From Clostridia bacterium (GTDB taxonomy: Bacteria; Bacillota; Clostridia; Christensenellales; Borkfalkiaceae): a DNA stretch of 64,000 nt. The stretch is from the NCBI GenBank assembly GCA_014805025.1, contig JAAUYR010000021.1:1-64000 (forward strand), in the 5' to 3' direction. How positions within the stretch are numbered: the first letter of the stretch is position 1; every line of letters begins with the position of its first letter. The position numbers and the translations under genes were made by a program. Of this stretch, positions 2,029 through 35,542 are shown one piece after another. Under the pieces are notes generated by a model. The model was not told the DNA's origin and made no database searches. It saw nothing but the letters and a program-made list of their open reading frames with translations.

Positions 2029-3894
2029 TCAGAACACTATCTTTAAAAATCTTTCTACGCCGTTTAAATCTTTCAACACTATTGCGTAGTCGCGCTTGGG
2101 GAAGATTTTTAAAATATCCGTCGCCTGGTTTTCGCCGCACTCCATAATCAGCATACCGTCGCGCGTCAGATAGTTTTTGACGTTCTTGGATATCTGGCGG
2201 TAAAATTCCAGACCGTCCTCGCCGCCGTCAAGCGCAATGCGCGGCTCGTGCTCGCGCACTTCCCTCTGCAAAAACGGAATATCGCCGCTCTTAATATATG
2301 GCGGATTACATACTATTATATTGTATCTGCCGTGAACGTTCTCGAACAAATCGCTCACAACAAAGCTGACGTCCGCGCTGTTGTAGTTAGCGTTTTCCTT
2401 GGCGAGCATTATAGCCGCGTCGGATATATCCGCAGCGGTAACTGAAACTCCGCGCTTTTTGCAGGCCTTTGAAACGGCTATGGCAATACAGCCCGAGCCG
2501 GTGCACATATCCAGAACCTTATCGCCGTTTTCAACCGATTTGATTACTATATCGGCAAGCATTTCCGTTTCGGGACGGGGAATGAGCGCGCGCTCGTCCA
2601 CCTTAATGGTGCAGCCGTAGAACTCGGTATCGCCTATAATGTACCAGAGCGGTCTGCCCGTTAAACGCTTTTGAATAATCTCGGCAATTTTCTTACTCTC
2701 GTAAGAGCTTACCGTGCGCTCGACGGTGTACAAATCGCTGCGGTGTATCTTTAACACAAGCGCGTAAATCCACTCCGCGTCGCTCTCGTCGATGTCCTCG
2801 GCCGCAAACTTCTTTTTGGTTGCGTCCAGCATTTTTGAAAGTATGCCGCCCGTTACGAACTGCGACTCGGGCGAGGTTTCGTCCGCGTCCATTTCAAGCA
2901 CTTTATTGAACGCCGCAATTGCGACTTCTATCATATCCTCGGTCGGCTCGCGAGTTGTCAGGTATTTCTGCAACAGCATACCCGGAGCCTTGAATATGTT
3001 TACAAACTTGTTATCGAACTTAGCTAAAAGCTTTAAAATTTCGTAGGAAATTCCGGCAATTACCGGCAAAAGCACGATTTCGAGGCCTAATCTTGCTAAA
3101 ACTCGCAAAGGCCCGTTGGAAATCATGTTGACCCTGCACGCCCAGCTTACTACGGAAAACACGATAACGTTTATAAGCAATACTATAAACAGAAACGAAG
3201 TTCCGCATCTGTCGTGTATGCGCGAGCACTCCGTAACCTTTTCGGGCGTAAGCTCCACGCCGTGCTCGTACGCGTTAATGGTCTTATGCTCGGCGCCGTG
3301 GTACTGGTAAAGCCTGCGAATATCTTTAAGCAGCAGAATTGCGCCGAGATACCCCAGGAAAATAATAAATTTAATACCGCCTAAAATAAGCCCCGTCCAA
3401 AGCCCGTTCAAATCGCTGTAAACGAGCGCGTCGGGAAAGGCTTTCTGCAACAGTCCCACAAGGTAGTTGGGCAGGAAAAAGAACAGCGCCACCGCAAGGA
3501 TTACGCCGAGGCAAACGGATATAACGGTTACTATATCCATTAAGCTTACTTTGAATTTCTGCATTACCCAGTTTTCGACCTTGCCGGGCTCATCCCCGTC
3601 CTCGCCGTTGCCGTAAACGGTAGCCGAGCGCATAAGCGTTTTAGTGCCGCGCACGAGCGACGAGACCAGGTTGACGATACCGCGCACAAACGGAATTTTA
3701 GCTACGGTTTTAGCGGCGTCGCTTTTAACGATTCTCTGCGCTTCAATCTGAATTTCGCCGTCGGGGTCGCGCACGGCGGTAGCCATACCCGATTTCCCCA
3801 TCATCATAACGCCTTCTAAAACGGCCTGACCGCCTATGTACGTTCCGCACTTTTTGGGCTTTTTAATTTTTTCGGTTTTTTCTTTTTTTGACAT
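2029..3894 (-). CDS. prmC: DUF1385 membrane protein fused to release-factor glutamine methyltransferase PrmC
   Basis: 621-residue two-part protein. The N-terminal half (about residues 10-310) has the DUF1385 signature: GGQAVLEGVMMMG near the start, several membrane segments, and YHGAEHKTINAYEHG with DRCGTSFL. The C-terminal half (about 320-620) is a complete PrmC/HemK N5-glutamine methyltransferase, with a helical N-domain, the SAM site VLDMCTGSGCIAIAVS and the catalytic NPPYIKSG. I chose the ATG at 3894 (MSKKEK) instead of the ORF-track start, because GAAGGG precedes it and the DUF1385 homology begins just after. The two proteins are usually neighbouring separate genes; here the frame is continuous with no stop. 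It lies between rpmE and prfA. Confidence 0.9.
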   Translation of the reverse strand: MSKKEKTEKIKKPKKCGTYIGGQAVLEGVMMMGKSGMATAVRDPDGEIQIEAQRIVKSDAAKTVAKIPFVRGIVNLVSSLVRGTKTLMRSATVYGNGEDGDEPGKVENWVMQKFKVSLMDIVTVISVCLGVILAVALFFFLPNYLVGLLQKAFPDALVYSDLNGLWTGLILGGIKFIIFLGYLGAILLLKDIRRLYQYHGAEHKTINAYEHGVELTPEKVTECSRIHDRCGTSFLFIVLLINVIVFSVVSWACRVNMISNGPLRVLARLGLEIVLLPVIAGISYEILKLLAKFDNKFVNIFKAPGMLLQKYLTTREPTEDMIEVAIAAFNKVLEMDADETSPESQFVTGGILSKMLDATKKKFAAEDIDESDAEWIYALVLKIHRSDLYTVERTVSSYESKKIAEIIQKRLTGRPLWYIIGDTEFYGCTIKVDERALIPRPETEMLADIVIKSVENGDKVLDMCTGSGCIAIAVSKACKKRGVSVTAADISDAAIMLAKENANYNSADVSFVVSDLFENVHGRYNIIVCNPPYIKSGDIPFLQREVREHEPRIALDGGEDGLEFYRQISKNVKNYLTRDGMLIMECGENQATDILKIFPKRDYAIVLKDLNGVERFLKIVF

Positions 3895-3951
3895 TTCGCC
3901 CTTCACTAACAAAAATTTAAGCTCCAAAAACTTCTTTTGGAGCCGCAGATT

Positions 3952-4155
3952 TTAAATATTGTATCTTTTTTTGAACTTGTCTACACGGCCGCCTGTGTCA
4001 ACAAGCTTCTGCTTGCCGGTAAAGAAAGGATGGCATTTATTGCATATATCCACTTTCAGCGTATCCACATTTTTGGTAGTACCCGTAGTGAACGTTTCAC
4101 CGCAAGCGCATACAACCGTAACCTCGTGATAATCGGGATGTATTTCGGGCTTCAT
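3952..4155 (-). CDS. rpmE: 50S ribosomal protein L31, zinc-binding type
   Basis: 67 residues beginning [22 protein letters not shown]. The paired cysteines (CAC and CNKC) mark the zinc-containing form of L31. The ORF-track start is a GTG inside the Shine-Dalgarno GCGAGGTG; the ATG at 4155, with 6-nt spacing, fits better. First gene of the rpmE-prmC-prfA unit. Confidence 0.95.
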
Positions 4156-4193
4156 AGCTTTCACCTCGCTGTTATTTCATCTTATTCGCGTAT

Positions 4194-4222
4194 ATTATAT
4201 ATAAAATATGCGCGATAGTCAA
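4194..4222 (-). promoter_or_regulatory. Promoter of rpmE-prmC-prfA
   Basis: TTGACT-17-TATAAT on the minus strand, about 40 nt before the rpmE start. Confidence 0.75.
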
Positions 4223-4300
4223 TTGATTTTCAAGCGCCTGAAAAAGTTTTTGGCGGAAATTGCAAAAAAAACCGTATTTTTTATTTTTCTGTGTTTTTAG

Positions 4301-4329
4301 TTGCAAAAGTCGGTTTCGAGGCGTATAAT
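4301..4329 (+). promoter_or_regulatory. Promoter of the alcohol-dehydrogenase-like gene
   Basis: TTGCAA-17-TATAAT, with 16 nt between the -10 box and ATG. Predicted leader is about 10 nt and has no Shine-Dalgarno. Confidence 0.6.
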
Positions 4330-4345
4330 GTGCAATAGTTAGATT

Positions 4346-5368
4346 ATGGATAACTGGATTTTAAAAGGGGTTAATACCCTTGTAAACGAACCTTCGAGCG
4401 TTAACATTACCGCTCCTACCCAGGTTAAAGTCAAGGTTTCGCACCTGCTTTTAACCGATGATGACGCCATGCTTTATAACGGCGACGTTAAAACGACCTA
4501 CCCTAGGATTATCGGCAAAGCCGCCGTGGGTATCGTTACCGAGGCCGGAGATAACTGCTACGGCTTACAGAAAGGTTCAAGAGTTTACTTCGAGCCTTCC
4601 CGTGCCTGCGGAAACTGTCTTTCCTGCAAGAGCGGCAAACCCAAGGACTGCTCCGAGGTTGCCATTGCCGGAAGGGATTTCGACGGCTTTATGCGCGATT
4701 TCGTCGTATGCGAGTACGGCGACGTTGCAGCGCTGCCCGATTCCGTAAGCGATTTCCACGCGCTGTGCATAGAAACTATCGGTATTGCGGAAAATATTTA
4801 CGACAAACTCAATCTTTCCGCGGGTCAGAGGGTTGCGGTCGTAGGCGGCAGCTTTACGGGCAATATAATAGCCCAGGTGCTGTTGTACCACAAGGTTATA
4901 CCTATCGTTATCGATAACAACGCCGCCAACCTCGAAGCCGCCCAAAAGTGCGGCATAAGCTACGCTTTCGAGGCCAACGACGAGTTCGACGAGAATATCA
5001 GGAACGCCACAAGCGGAAATCTTTGCGACGCGGCAATTTACTGCGCTGCTTCAAGACTTCCCTTATCGCTCATCCCGAGGCTTGTCGGCGACGGCAAAAA
5101 AGTAGTTTTGTGCGCAAGTACGACGGGCAACGCAGTTATGGATATGCACGATATAATGGAAAAGAACCTTACCGTTTTCGGCGTTTCCAACGCGTACGGC
5201 TATACCGACGCAGTCATAAACATGCTTGTGCATAAGGCGGTCAACATCGACGTTTTCGAAAAAGAAGTGCTTACCGAGTTTAACCCGGCCGAGCTTCTCG
5301 ACGAAAAGTCGGCGTTCGTTACCTCGCCCAAGCGCAATATAATGACCGTGCTTAAAATGATTATCTGA
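4346..5368 (+). CDS. Zinc-type medium-chain dehydrogenase-like protein lacking catalytic-zinc residues
   Basis: 340 residues with the fold of zinc alcohol/polyol dehydrogenases: a GroES-like N-domain, then a nucleotide-binding domain with VVGGSFTGN replacing the usual GxGxxG. The structural zinc site is intact (CGNCLSCKSGKPKDC). The catalytic site is not: the usual CGICGSD is LLLTDDD here, and the GHE motif is GKAAVG, so the Cys and His zinc ligands are gone. A conventional zinc-dependent alcohol oxidation is therefore doubtful; it may be a zinc-independent reductase or a degenerate relative. No Shine-Dalgarno is visible. Substrate unknown. It is 17 nt upstream of the cardiolipin synthase gene. 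Confidence 0.8.
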   Translation: MDNWILKGVNTLVNEPSSVNITAPTQVKVKVSHLLLTDDDAMLYNGDVKTTYPRIIGKAAVGIVTEAGDNCYGLQKGSRVYFEPSRACGNCLSCKSGKPKDCSEVAIAGRDFDGFMRDFVVCEYGDVAALPDSVSDFHALCIETIGIAENIYDKLNLSAGQRVAVVGGSFTGNIIAQVLLYHKVIPIVIDNNAANLEAAQKCGISYAFEANDEFDENIRNATSGNLCDAAIYCAASRLPLSLIPRLVGDGKKVVLCASTTGNAVMDMHDIMEKNLTVFGVSNAYGYTDAVINMLVHKAVNIDVFEKEVLTEFNPAELLDEKSAFVTSPKRNIMTVLKMII

Positions 5369-8197: not shown

Positions 8198-8422
8198 TTA
8201 AACGGGCAAAATGCGCAGGATGTGCTTGCTGACAATCATAAGAATGAGGTCGCAAAGCCAAATGATGTTGAATCCGAAGAAAATACGGATAATCGCTGCA
8301 ACGATTTTGCCGTCCTGAATTCTGGTGATAATTCCGCAGAACCACGAGGTTACGGGAATAATAGCCAGAATCAAGCTAACTAAGTAGCCAAGTCCAAAGT
8401 AATCGCCCTTTTTAGCTGCCAT
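8198..8422 (-). CDS. Small two-helix membrane protein, copy 1
   Basis: 74 residues, mostly two membrane helices (about 12-35 and 42-64). Family not recognised. It aligns with the neighbouring 82-residue protein: both have an IP near the first helix, GI-x-x-I about ten residues on, and a DLI near the end of the second helix followed by a lysine and histidine. Good Shine-Dalgarno (AAAGGAGCG). Transcribed alone from a consensus promoter. Confidence 0.7.
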   Translation of the reverse strand: MAAKKGDYFGLGYLVSLILAIIPVTSWFCGIITRIQDGKIVAAIIRIFFGFNIIWLCDLILMIVSKHILRILPV

Positions 8423-8482: not shown

Positions 8483-8528
8483 CAATAATACAAAAAATGT
8501 CAATAAAATAGCATATTTTCGCGATTGT

Positions 8529-8777
8529 TTATGAGAACATTTCCTCTCCGAGCAAAAGCGCGTGACCCTTGGTAAGCACCCATATAAGGTCAAGTATCCA
8601 TATAAAGAACGCGCCGGGGAAAACCGTAAGTACGCCCAAAATAAGCCACACAATATCGTTTTTGACAGCGCCCTTTACTATACGGCATATCCCGTAGAAA
8701 ACGTCTACGCAGGGAATACACAAAAGCACCTTTACTATCAGCGGCAGCCCCTCGACAGCCTTTAACAATTCGTCCAT
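8529..8777 (-). CDS. Small two-helix membrane protein, copy 2
   Basis: 82 residues with two membrane helices and a short charged loop (KGAVKND) between. Function unknown; paralogue of the 74-residue protein next to it. GAGGAGC sits 5 nt before the ATG. Its consensus promoter resembles that of copy 1, which suggests that gene and promoter were duplicated together. Confidence 0.7.
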   Translation of the reverse strand: MDELLKAVEGLPLIVKVLLCIPCVDVFYGICRIVKGAVKNDIVWLILGVLTVFPGAFFIWILDLIWVLTKGHALLLGEEMFS

Positions 8778-8803
8778 AATAAGCTCCTCAAATATTTTAT
8801 TAT

Positions 8804-8831
8804 ATTATATCACTCGCATATAAAATGTCAA
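8804..8831 (-). promoter_or_regulatory. Promoter of small membrane protein copy 2
   Basis: TTGACA-16-TATAAT on the minus strand. Confidence 0.7.
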
Positions 8832-8833
8832 AA

Positions 8834-9034
8834 TTAAATTTTGCGACCTATTAATTCGTCTAAACTTATTCCGTAACAGTCAGCAAGCTTTACACAAAAA
8901 TCAATACTGGGGATAACATCTCCCCTTTCCCACCTTGTTATATTTTGATGTGATGTCGATAATTTTTTTGCTAACTCCATTACTGAAAGTCCAGCAAGCT
9001 CCCTTTGCTCTTTTAAAGCTTCTCCATAATTCAT
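8834..9034 (-). CDS. XRE (Cro/CI)-type regulator of paired module 1
   Basis: 66 residues, almost entirely one helix-turn-helix domain: an N-terminal LKEQRELAGLSVMELAKKL, then TSHQNITRWERGD with the recognition helix, then a LADCYGISLDELIG tail typical of XRE regulators. The ORF-track start is 5 codons early; GAGAGGC precedes the ATG at 9034. It is divergent from the 90-residue protein gene. Three palindrome-like sites lie between the two genes, so it probably represses both. Confidence 0.85.
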   Translation of the reverse strand: MNYGEALKEQRELAGLSVMELAKKLSTSHQNITRWERGDVIPSIDFCVKLADCYGISLDELIGRKI

Positions 9035-9059
9035 AAAACTGCCTCTCATATATTTTTAG

Positions 9060-9125
9060 CACAAATTTGTACCAAATAACTTGACAGGTACATAAATGTA
9101 CTTTATACTATGTACAAATATGTAT
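9060..9125. promoter_or_regulatory. Three operator-like sites of module 1
   Basis: CACAAATTTGTAC (centre about 9065), GTACATAAATGTAC (centre about 9094) and GTACAAATATGTAT (centre about 9118) share a GTACAnAnnTGTAC pattern. The middle one lies inside the 17-bp promoter spacer of the plus-strand gene. Confidence 0.6.
9081..9109 (+). promoter_or_regulatory. Promoter of the module 1 helical protein
   Basis: TTGACA-17-TATACT. The spacer is filled by the second operator-like palindrome. Confidence 0.75.
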
Positions 9126-9137
9126 TTGGAGGTGCTT

Positions 9138-9410
9138 ATGACTAATTCAATTTTATCAATGTTACTTGACGGTGGCAACGGGTTACACGAAGTTATAAAA
9201 GACAGCAAACAGTATATTGATTTGCAAAACGAAATAGACAAGATAATTACAAGATGCACCCCCAACCTAACGGAAGAGGAACGGCATAAAATTTTGTTCG
9301 ACATAGGACTTTTGCACTGCAAAATGGAGCTTGAAAAAACGACCCTCTTTTTCAAAGAGGGCGTAAAAACAGCGTTCAAGCTTTTTGTTGAAACCTGTAC
9401 TTACATATAA
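9138..9410 (+). CDS. 90-residue helical protein of module 1 (DUF6809-like)
   Basis: 90 residues from the ATG at 9138, which has GGAGGTG 4 nt upstream; the ORF-track start is too early. Predicted mostly helical, with a charged middle (NLTEEERHKI) and a C-terminal KMELEKT-x4-FKEGVKTAFKL. The closest family I recall is DUF6809, small Firmicute proteins of unknown function ending in a GF-x3-G-helix. It is a paralogue of the gene at 26632. Function not known; its only partner in sight is the divergent regulator. Confidence 0.65.
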   Translation: MTNSILSMLLDGGNGLHEVIKDSKQYIDLQNEIDKIITRCTPNLTEEERHKILFDIGLLHCKMELEKTTLFFKEGVKTAFKLFVETCTYI

Positions 9411-9436
9411 AAAAGCGGCGCAAATTGCGCCGCTTT
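9409..9436. terminator. Bidirectional terminator between module 1 and rplQ
   Basis: AAAGCGGCGCAA/TTGCGCCGCTTT stem with A- and T-runs. It ends the long ribosomal cluster on the minus strand. Confidence 0.8.
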
Positions 9437-9444
9437 CTAATTTT

Positions 9445-26631: not shown

Positions 26632-26904
26632 TTAAGTGTAATTATCTTTTGAAACTTCCATACCGAGTAATACGCCGCTTTTAAAACCAACCCTATATGC
26701 GGTCTTTTCCGTCTCTAATTCAAGCTCTCCGTATAATGTATTAATTCTCGACAACATTTCTTTTTGCTTTTCATTTAAGGTACTGTCAAGCTTATCGCAA
26801 AGGTCTAATAATTCTTGTTTGTCTTGATTATACTTCTCCGTATTGCTTATCCCCTCGCATACGTCGCATTCATAATAATAAAAATCTTCTATTATTGAAG
26901 TCAT
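26632..26904 (-). CDS. 90-residue helical protein of module 2 (DUF6809-like)
   Basis: 90 residues from the ATG at 26904, with AAGGAG 9 nt upstream; the ORF-track TTG start lies in front of that Shine-Dalgarno. Helical; the middle LNEKQKEMLSRI corresponds to LTEEERHKI of the module 1 protein, and the end ELELETEKTAYRVGFKSGVLLGMEV corresponds to its KMELEKT-x4-FKEGVK end. Same length (90) as its paralogue. Function unknown. Divergent from an XRE regulator. Confidence 0.65.
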   Translation of the reverse strand: MTSIIEDFYYYECDVCEGISNTEKYNQDKQELLDLCDKLDSTLNEKQKEMLSRINTLYGELELETEKTAYRVGFKSGVLLGMEVSKDNYT

Positions 26905-26919
26905 AATTCTAAACTCCTT

Positions 26920-26992
26920 TATCAAAATATTGATATGGGCATTATAGTATCAAGATTTTGATAAGTCAATTACTTTAAGCAATATTTTGATA
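26920..26992. promoter_or_regulatory. Three operator-like sites of module 2
   Basis: TATCAAAATATTGATA (26920-26935), TATCAAGATTTTGATA (26948-26963) and AAGCAATATTTTGATA (26977-26992), spaced 28 and 29 bp apart. The middle site fills the promoter spacer of the minus-strand gene, as in module 1. Confidence 0.65.
26941..26969 (-). promoter_or_regulatory. Promoter of the module 2 helical protein
   Basis: TTGACT-17-TATAAT. The 17-bp spacer is TATCAAAATCTTGATAC, the operator itself. Confidence 0.75.
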
Positions 26993-27007
26993 TTTTGTAG
27001 TAGAACT

Positions 27008-27211
27008 ATGTACGGCAAAGAAATTAAACAAATACGTAAATCTTTAAATTTTACGCAAACACAAGTTGCACAGGCGACGGGCATTCCGCAAAATACTTTA
27101 AGTTGGATTGAGGCCGATAAAGGTATTCCAAATATACAGCAGTGTGTTTTGTTGGCCAACTTTTACGGTGTTACCCTTGAAGAATTGCTTGGTCTTGAAT
27201 TAAATAAATAA
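27008..27211 (+). CDS. XRE (Cro/CI)-type regulator of paired module 2
   Basis: 67 residues, one helix-turn-helix domain: MYGKEIKQIRKSLNFTQTQVAQATG, recognition helix around PQNTLSWIEADKG, then LANFYGVTLEELLGLE. The ORF-track start is 7 codons early. No clear Shine-Dalgarno before the ATG. The tail matches that of the module 1 regulator. Likely represses the divergent gene and itself through the TATCAA-type sites. Confidence 0.85.
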   Translation: MYGKEIKQIRKSLNFTQTQVAQATGIPQNTLSWIEADKGIPNIQQCVLLANFYGVTLEELLGLELNK

Positions 27212-35370: not shown

Positions 35371-35400
35371 ATTTTTACCTCCTTTTCCGCATATCAAGCG

Positions 35401-35433
35401 AAAAATTCCCTGTTGCCGCACGGCAACAGGGAA
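35401..35433 (-). terminator. Attenuator terminator in the rplJ leader
   Basis: TTCCCTGTTGCCG/CGGCAACAGGGAA stem then TTTTT on the minus strand, about 30 nt before the rplJ start. Confidence 0.85.
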
Positions 35434-35536
35434 CAAGCAGCGCACAATACGCATTTAAAACTTATTATTCCTGCAACCTCGGTGGGATAATTAAGTCTTG
35501 CGACGCCCACTTTCTACGGCAGCAAATTTAATTTAC
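35401..35536 (-). ncRNA. Ribosomal protein L10 leader
   Basis: Minus-strand leader with AAGACTTAATTATCCCACCGAGGTTGCAGGAATAATA, matching what I recall of Firmicute L10 leaders (TTAAT...CCxACCGAGGT...), followed by the attenuator hairpin. Binding of L10(L12)4 would cause early termination. Confidence 0.75.
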
Positions 35537-35542
35537 TGTTCG

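Follow-up and report, generated by a model that had tools for sequence, protein, structure and literature searches.

The window, a 64,000-nucleotide stretch of a Clostridia bacterium contig, carries two small divergent genes separated by an intergenic region of 103 bp. The first (8834–9034, minus strand; coding 9034 to 8837) encodes a 66-residue XRE (Cro/CI-type) repressor with a single helix-turn-helix (HTH) domain, which matches Pfam HTH_3 at 55.4 bits (E=6.5e-15; curated cut-off 23). Its recognition helix is TSHQNITRWERG, and the nearest solved chain is the ICEBs1 XRE regulator (7t8i, 1.1e-8). The second (9138–9410, plus strand; coding 9138–9407, the stop ending at 9410) encodes a 90-residue all-helical protein, here called the cargo. 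Open reading frame coordinates and the HTH_3 match agree with an earlier note on this DNA, which had described the two as divergent. A terminator at 9412–9436 is common to the cargo gene and rplQ, and an equivalent hairpin is present at the near-empty site of a sister genome.

That note had also placed three palindromic sites between the genes, the middle one inside the cargo promoter, and both observations are borne out. The predicted 14-bp operator O_M (GTACATAAATGTAC, 9088–9101), an exact instance of the pattern, lies within the 17-bp spacer between the -35 TTGACA (9081–9086) and the -10 TATACT (9104–9109) of the plus-strand promoter of the cargo gene. Two further predicted operators, each 14 bp with one mismatch to the pattern, stand on either side: O_3 (GTACAAATATGTAT, 9112–9125) across the likely cargo transcription start, and O_X (GCACAAATTTGTAC, 9059–9072) in the XRE promoter. 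The palindrome centres are 29 bp (O_X to O_M, as in most modules described below) and 24 bp (O_M to O_3) apart. Genome-wide (1.32 Mb), the exact O_M pattern has no second instance. The repeated-palindrome score of the region is 12, and none of 1500 dinucleotide shuffles of the same 103 bp scored as high (mean 6.1, s.d. 1.0, maximum 10; p<1/1500). O_X adjoins the extended -10 of the XRE gene (TGCTAAAAA, 9053–9061, minus strand); thus, there is an operator at both promoters of this locus, hereafter module 1. The extended -10 beside O_X and the position of O_3 over the start site were absent from the earlier note.

The cargo is a remote member of DUF6809 (PF20648). Against the Pfam model it scored 14.5 bits (E=0.066), under the gathering cut-off of 27. 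Against a lineage profile built on 116 DUF6809-type sequences of this bacterial family, with the module 1 protein left out, it matched over residues 4–85 at E=8.6e-11, indicating full-length homology. Its AlphaFold model has four helices, the last of ~44 residues, with a pLDDT of 78; the model of the DUF6809 protein of module 2 (below) is poorer. No significant match to DUF6809 was found in the PDB by sequence or by fold, single-protein searches with the 90-residue cargo gave no match in genome contigs, plasmids or phages, and no open-licence paper was found to mention DUF6809 by name. Four solitary DUF6809 genes (L162, L164, L165 and L166), all encoding 94 residues, have near-equal profile scores in genomes of three different families, which suggests recent horizontal transfer.

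Comparison with congeners indicates that module 1 is accessory. The nearest relative among the genomes sampled has a 94% identical rplQ; it aligns up to 8507 and again from 9442, with 75 bp between. The intervening segment (8508–9441), which holds a small membrane-protein gene, the XRE and the cargo, is missing at this site in three congeners, where 75 bp (G139), 52 bp (G159) or ~123 bp (G169) replace the ~930 bp of the window; these near-empty sites mean that a ~900-bp segment is present here and absent there. A fourth congener, G184, carries a related cassette elsewhere, between a different pair of conserved genes, and the three sites of this cassette are arranged alike. This cassette (L366, ~3800–4800) is flanked by repeat-like CGGAATGACG / TGTCACCCCGAGC, the conserved genes on its two sides are adjacent in the window (4250/4299), and its cargo is a different helical protein unmatched by the DUF6809 profile. 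Upstream of rpsJ, four genomes have DUF6809 at the site, and two others have an XRE there but no DUF6809.

A second module lies further along the window. Its DUF6809 cargo (26632–26904, minus strand) passes the cut-off at 52 bits, and its XRE (27008–27211, plus strand) has 67 residues and the recognition helix IPQNTLSWIEAD. The cargo promoter, TTGACT-17-TATAAT (26969–26941, minus strand), holds the predicted operator ATCAAGATTTTGAT (26949–26962) in its spacer, with predicted operators ATCAAAATATTGAT (26921–26934) and AGCAATATTTTGAT (26978–26991) beside it. The module 2 operator ATCAAnnnnTTGAT is unlike that of module 1, and the module has an XRE of its own. A pattern-scan site at 27000 was rejected as a further operator, as it overlaps the module 2 start codon.

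DUF6809 was searched in 201 genomes of the family and the gene surroundings were read. A divergent short XRE lies directly upstream of 76 of the 117 distinct DUF6809 genes in the family; elsewhere in the class, 2 of 52 genes from other families have one. A near-consensus sigma70 promoter toward the cargo is present in 72 of 73 intergenic regions (the first set analysed); its spacer is 17 bp in 61 modules, with the palindrome at its centre (combined p 1.6e-13 versus spacer shuffles). Sister operators stand at preferred distances, mostly 29 bp toward the XRE and 24–30 bp downstream. On the XRE strand, an extended -10 (TGnTAWAAT) is kept at the same offset behind the XRE-side operator in ~67 modules, and therefore the XRE promoter is of the same design. 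The XRE start codons fall into two classes, ~33 or ~46 nt from the cargo -35, module 1 being of the second. In the ~33-nt class, about half of the modules (e.g. L087, L118 and L147), the XRE begins ~7 nt behind its own -10 and has no ribosome-binding site, which suggests a leaderless mRNA; in the other half the leader is 12–16 nt longer and has a ribosome-binding site. The geometry is constant across modules and the palindrome sequence is particular to each.

As a control, short XREs not associated with DUF6809 were taken from these genomes, with spacers counted as palindromic at >=6/7 pairs and promoters found by a consensus-only scan. Among all strong promoters gathered, palindromic spacers occur in 59 of 119 XRE-divergent ones and in 9 of 203 others (p=1e-21; 3% in shuffles), and in about half of the XRE-divergent promoters the spacer palindrome is imperfect or undetected at this strict cut-off. 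By class, the counts are 27/48 for short XREs without DUF6809 and 1/11 for long XREs; outside the family the layout is rarer (2/7 short XREs, a small sample). The control XREs, too, face away from palindromic-spacer promoters, which drive unrelated genes: zinc-ribbon/DUF4190, YccF membrane, small CxxC and leucine-rich-repeat-like proteins and, once, another XRE. The same helix and operator accompany different cargos in L078/L266/L252/L274, L004/L282 and L128/L306, same-specificity XREs are found with DUF6809 and with other cargos, and cargo labels are mixed at well-supported forks of the XRE tree. Therefore the XRE-operator unit is conserved while the cargo is exchanged; judged by these comparisons, the unit behaves as an exchangeable cassette.

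Two further observations concern the short XREs. A recurring cargo of ~90 residues beside them (L283, L286, L288, L293, L303 and L306) has a conserved CxxC and later cysteines (NCxNCKHY...), and the one member tested matched no Pfam family over cut-off. On contig C30 of the window's own genome, two XREs (L023/L036) are mutually divergent across TTGACA-ATCCCTAATTAGGGATGA-TATACT, a CI/Cro-like pair.

Near-identical recognition helices go with matching palindromes, even where the rest of the XRE differs. For example, the helix IPVSTYANWEQGRR pairs with TAGTCAA in four modules; outside the helix their XREs are 33–49% identical, and their cargos are 13–38% identical. Recognition-helix similarity tracks operator similarity (Mantel r=0.36), and does so when the rest of the XRE is controlled for (partial r=0.26; p=5e-4). 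Similarity in the rest of the XRE tracks the operator too (r=0.36), so the covariation is partly shared ancestry. Cargo and operator similarities are uncorrelated (r=0.08), and those of XRE and DUF6809 scarcely covary (r=0.13). The seven strongest helix/operator matches among otherwise diverged XREs all come from two clusters, so that the covariation is good evidence, though not independent.

These results bear on the term 'paired regulator module' used in the earlier note. As a predicted regulator-operator pair that represses the divergent gene, the term is well supported by the geometry of ~70 modules, the helix-operator covariation and the control promoters. For the 90-residue protein the pairing is doubtful: it is a DUF6809-type cargo, and same-specificity XREs would control unrelated cargos. 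The weak XRE-DUF6809 covariation and the cargo exchange also oppose the specific contact expected of a bistable switch, in which DUF6809 would bind and antagonise its own XRE in a self-reinforcing, SinI/SinR-like escape. A small helical protein encoded opposite an autoregulated XRE would suit such a switch, DUF6809 outside the family also adjoins XREs in other orientations, and a surface common to all these XREs may offer a target; DUF6809 has no fold match in its favour, and we regard this feedback as unlikely.

We give still less weight to a type II-like toxin-antitoxin (TA) system with DUF6809 as toxin and the XRE as antitoxin and autorepressor. The modules do resemble TA loci in being small, two-gene, patchy and multi-copy, and a TA role was predicted for pairings of an XRE with a small protein, XRE-DUF397 among them (PMC2701414). 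Yet here the genes are divergent and form no operon, the XRE is an HTH alone with no spare toxin-binding region, the XRE-DUF6809 covariation is small, XREs of one specificity accompany cargos as different as membrane and leucine-rich-repeat-like proteins, and no PADLOC or NCBIfam TA family was matched over cut-off. Moreover, 14 XRE-DUF397 pairs that were tested had no TA behaviour (PMC10364602). DUF6809 as a type II toxin was considered and found unsupported. The Streptomyces XRE-DUF397 (WhiJ/BldB-like) pairs, suspected TA systems (PMC2701414, PMC10364602), resemble the present modules in being accessory and in numbering many paralogous XRE and small-protein pairs per genome. They differ in that their XRE is of ~300 residues and co-directional with a downstream DUF397 gene, as opposed to 66 residues, divergent orientation and fixed spacer-operator geometry here; no DUF397 match was found at module 1.

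The XRE has close relatives in filamentous phages. The best phage matches to the module 1 XRE are to repressors of small gut phages: inovirus bajarodino 17 comes first (60.6%), followed by records of microviruses and other inoviruses, and the module 2 XRE matches the same group. In bajarodino 17, 31 and 4, the repressor is divergent from a TTGACA/TATAAT promoter whose spacer is filled by a palindrome that has more copies to its left and right; a 5.8-kb faecal phage likewise has a repressor facing away from a palindromic-spacer promoter with copies on both sides. The layout was not found for the caudoviral XRE relatives used as controls. A supported clade (99/96) joins the window XRE with three chromosomal XREs and the repressor of bajarodino 17. 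Most likely, the regulatory half shares descent with inovirus switches. The tree has 69 columns and few phage sequences, so that transfer may have run in either direction, and convergence is possible. Scans of viral contigs with the XRE and inovirus repressors returned none or only remote relatives, and that for the module 2 operator in a promoter returned none. One contig from the scan with the module 1 operator in a promoter was set aside as a chance hit, having a lytic-type replication region and no XRE.

This kinship raises the possibility that module 1 is a degenerate remnant of an integrated filamentous phage in which the repressor region was kept. The shared operator layout would fit, as would family member G075, in which ~1.5 kb separates a Zot gene from an XRE that has the palindromic-spacer layout. 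Against this, the ~900-bp segment between conserved chromosomal genes has no Zot, Rep or coat gene, the open reading frames of cargo and XRE and the operators are intact, Zot occurs in only 8 of the 201 genomes while cassettes are many per genome, and DUF6809 was not found in the inoviruses examined. A remnant thus appears quite improbable. The module 1 XRE scores 52 bits against the RstR family (NF041951, NCBIfam; cut-off 80), and in place of the rep/zot context of that family its neighbours are rplQ and conserved chromosomal genes.

In function, the module 1 XRE is paralleled by RstR of CTXphi and by Pf4r of Pf4, the Pf4r motif being found at three sites upstream of pf4r (PMC8402870). Like module 1, the repressor regions of these inoviruses and of bajarodino have a small divergent Cro/CI-type repressor with several operators between; unlike them, the window cassette is without phage genes and its cargo is DUF6809, and their repressors are C-terminally tailed (87–93 versus 66 residues). 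The 434/lambda-type CI-Cro switches and ICEBs1 ImmR share the HTH fold, divergent promoters and multiple operators, and in sequence the module 1 XRE matches both the 434 repressor and the ICEBs1 regulator. They differ from module 1, which has one repressor of a single domain, with no protease-sensitive or oligomerising domain, and a chromosomal cargo.

Taking together the anatomy, recurrence, specificity covariation, cargo exchange, accessory status and phage resemblance read from these sequences, we consider that module 1 is probably an autoregulated, single-domain Cro/CI-type two-promoter switch of inovirus-like plan, an exchangeable cassette with a chromosomal cargo. Sigma70 polymerase is kept off a promoter that has a Cro/CI-type dimer bound to an operator between its -35 and its -10. 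We infer DNA binding, autorepression and repression by polymerase occlusion, for which the earlier note expected a full block, as follows. A dimer of the XRE would bind three copies of its private palindrome, with O_M occupying the cargo-promoter spacer and O_3 the site where cargo transcription starts; O_X would fill the spacer of the promoter that drives the XRE gene itself, which has a weak -35 and an extended -10. Held on these three sites, the XRE would keep the cargo off and limit its own level; control of its own gene, which the earlier note did not include, is almost certain. As the XRE has no sensor domain, the cargo might be expressed upon repressor dilution, proteolysis or competition, or when the cassette enters a cell without one. 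A converse arrangement, with the XRE acting at O_M as activator of the cargo and repressing only its own gene, is very improbable: the cargo promoters, TTGACA/TATAAT in most modules, come close to the consensus and need no activator, and between -35 and -10 is the most used operator position for repression (PMC5495784).

The divergent small-repressor switch is, as a kind, already known; among open-licence papers we found no earlier description of its expansion as an exchangeable chromosomal cassette, of the tie to DUF6809 or of the inovirus match. The cassettes would form a large, lineage-expanded set in this gut Clostridia family, with constant geometry and swapped cargo, whose specificities have diversified so that paralogues need not cross-react. 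More tentatively, and with somewhat more doubt than belief, an inovirus-type lysogeny switch may have become a general cassette, dozens of private, non-cross-reacting units per lineage being inserted and exchanged between cargos and possibly conferring chromosomal immunity to phages that use the same operator. The modules would provide a natural set of switches, each of one gene and one repressor, in which the geometry is fixed and the specificity changes. Such a set would serve as a test bed for the evolution of HTH specificity under pressure against cross-talk and as a source of compact orthogonal repressors, and it would concretely tie the immunity systems of filamentous phages to the control of chromosomal genes in gut bacteria not yet cultured. 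DUF6809, an uncharacterised family, gains its first regulatory context.

Beside module 1 lie two tandem genes for small membrane proteins (8198–8422 and 8529–8777, minus strand), distantly similar to each other (31% over 67 residues); the second belongs to the accessory segment. Both have a perfect TTGACA-16-TATAAT promoter with a TG before the -10 (8482–8455 and 8831–8804). The only Rfam match within the window is an L10 ribosomal protein leader (RF00557) at 35392–35537 on the minus strand.
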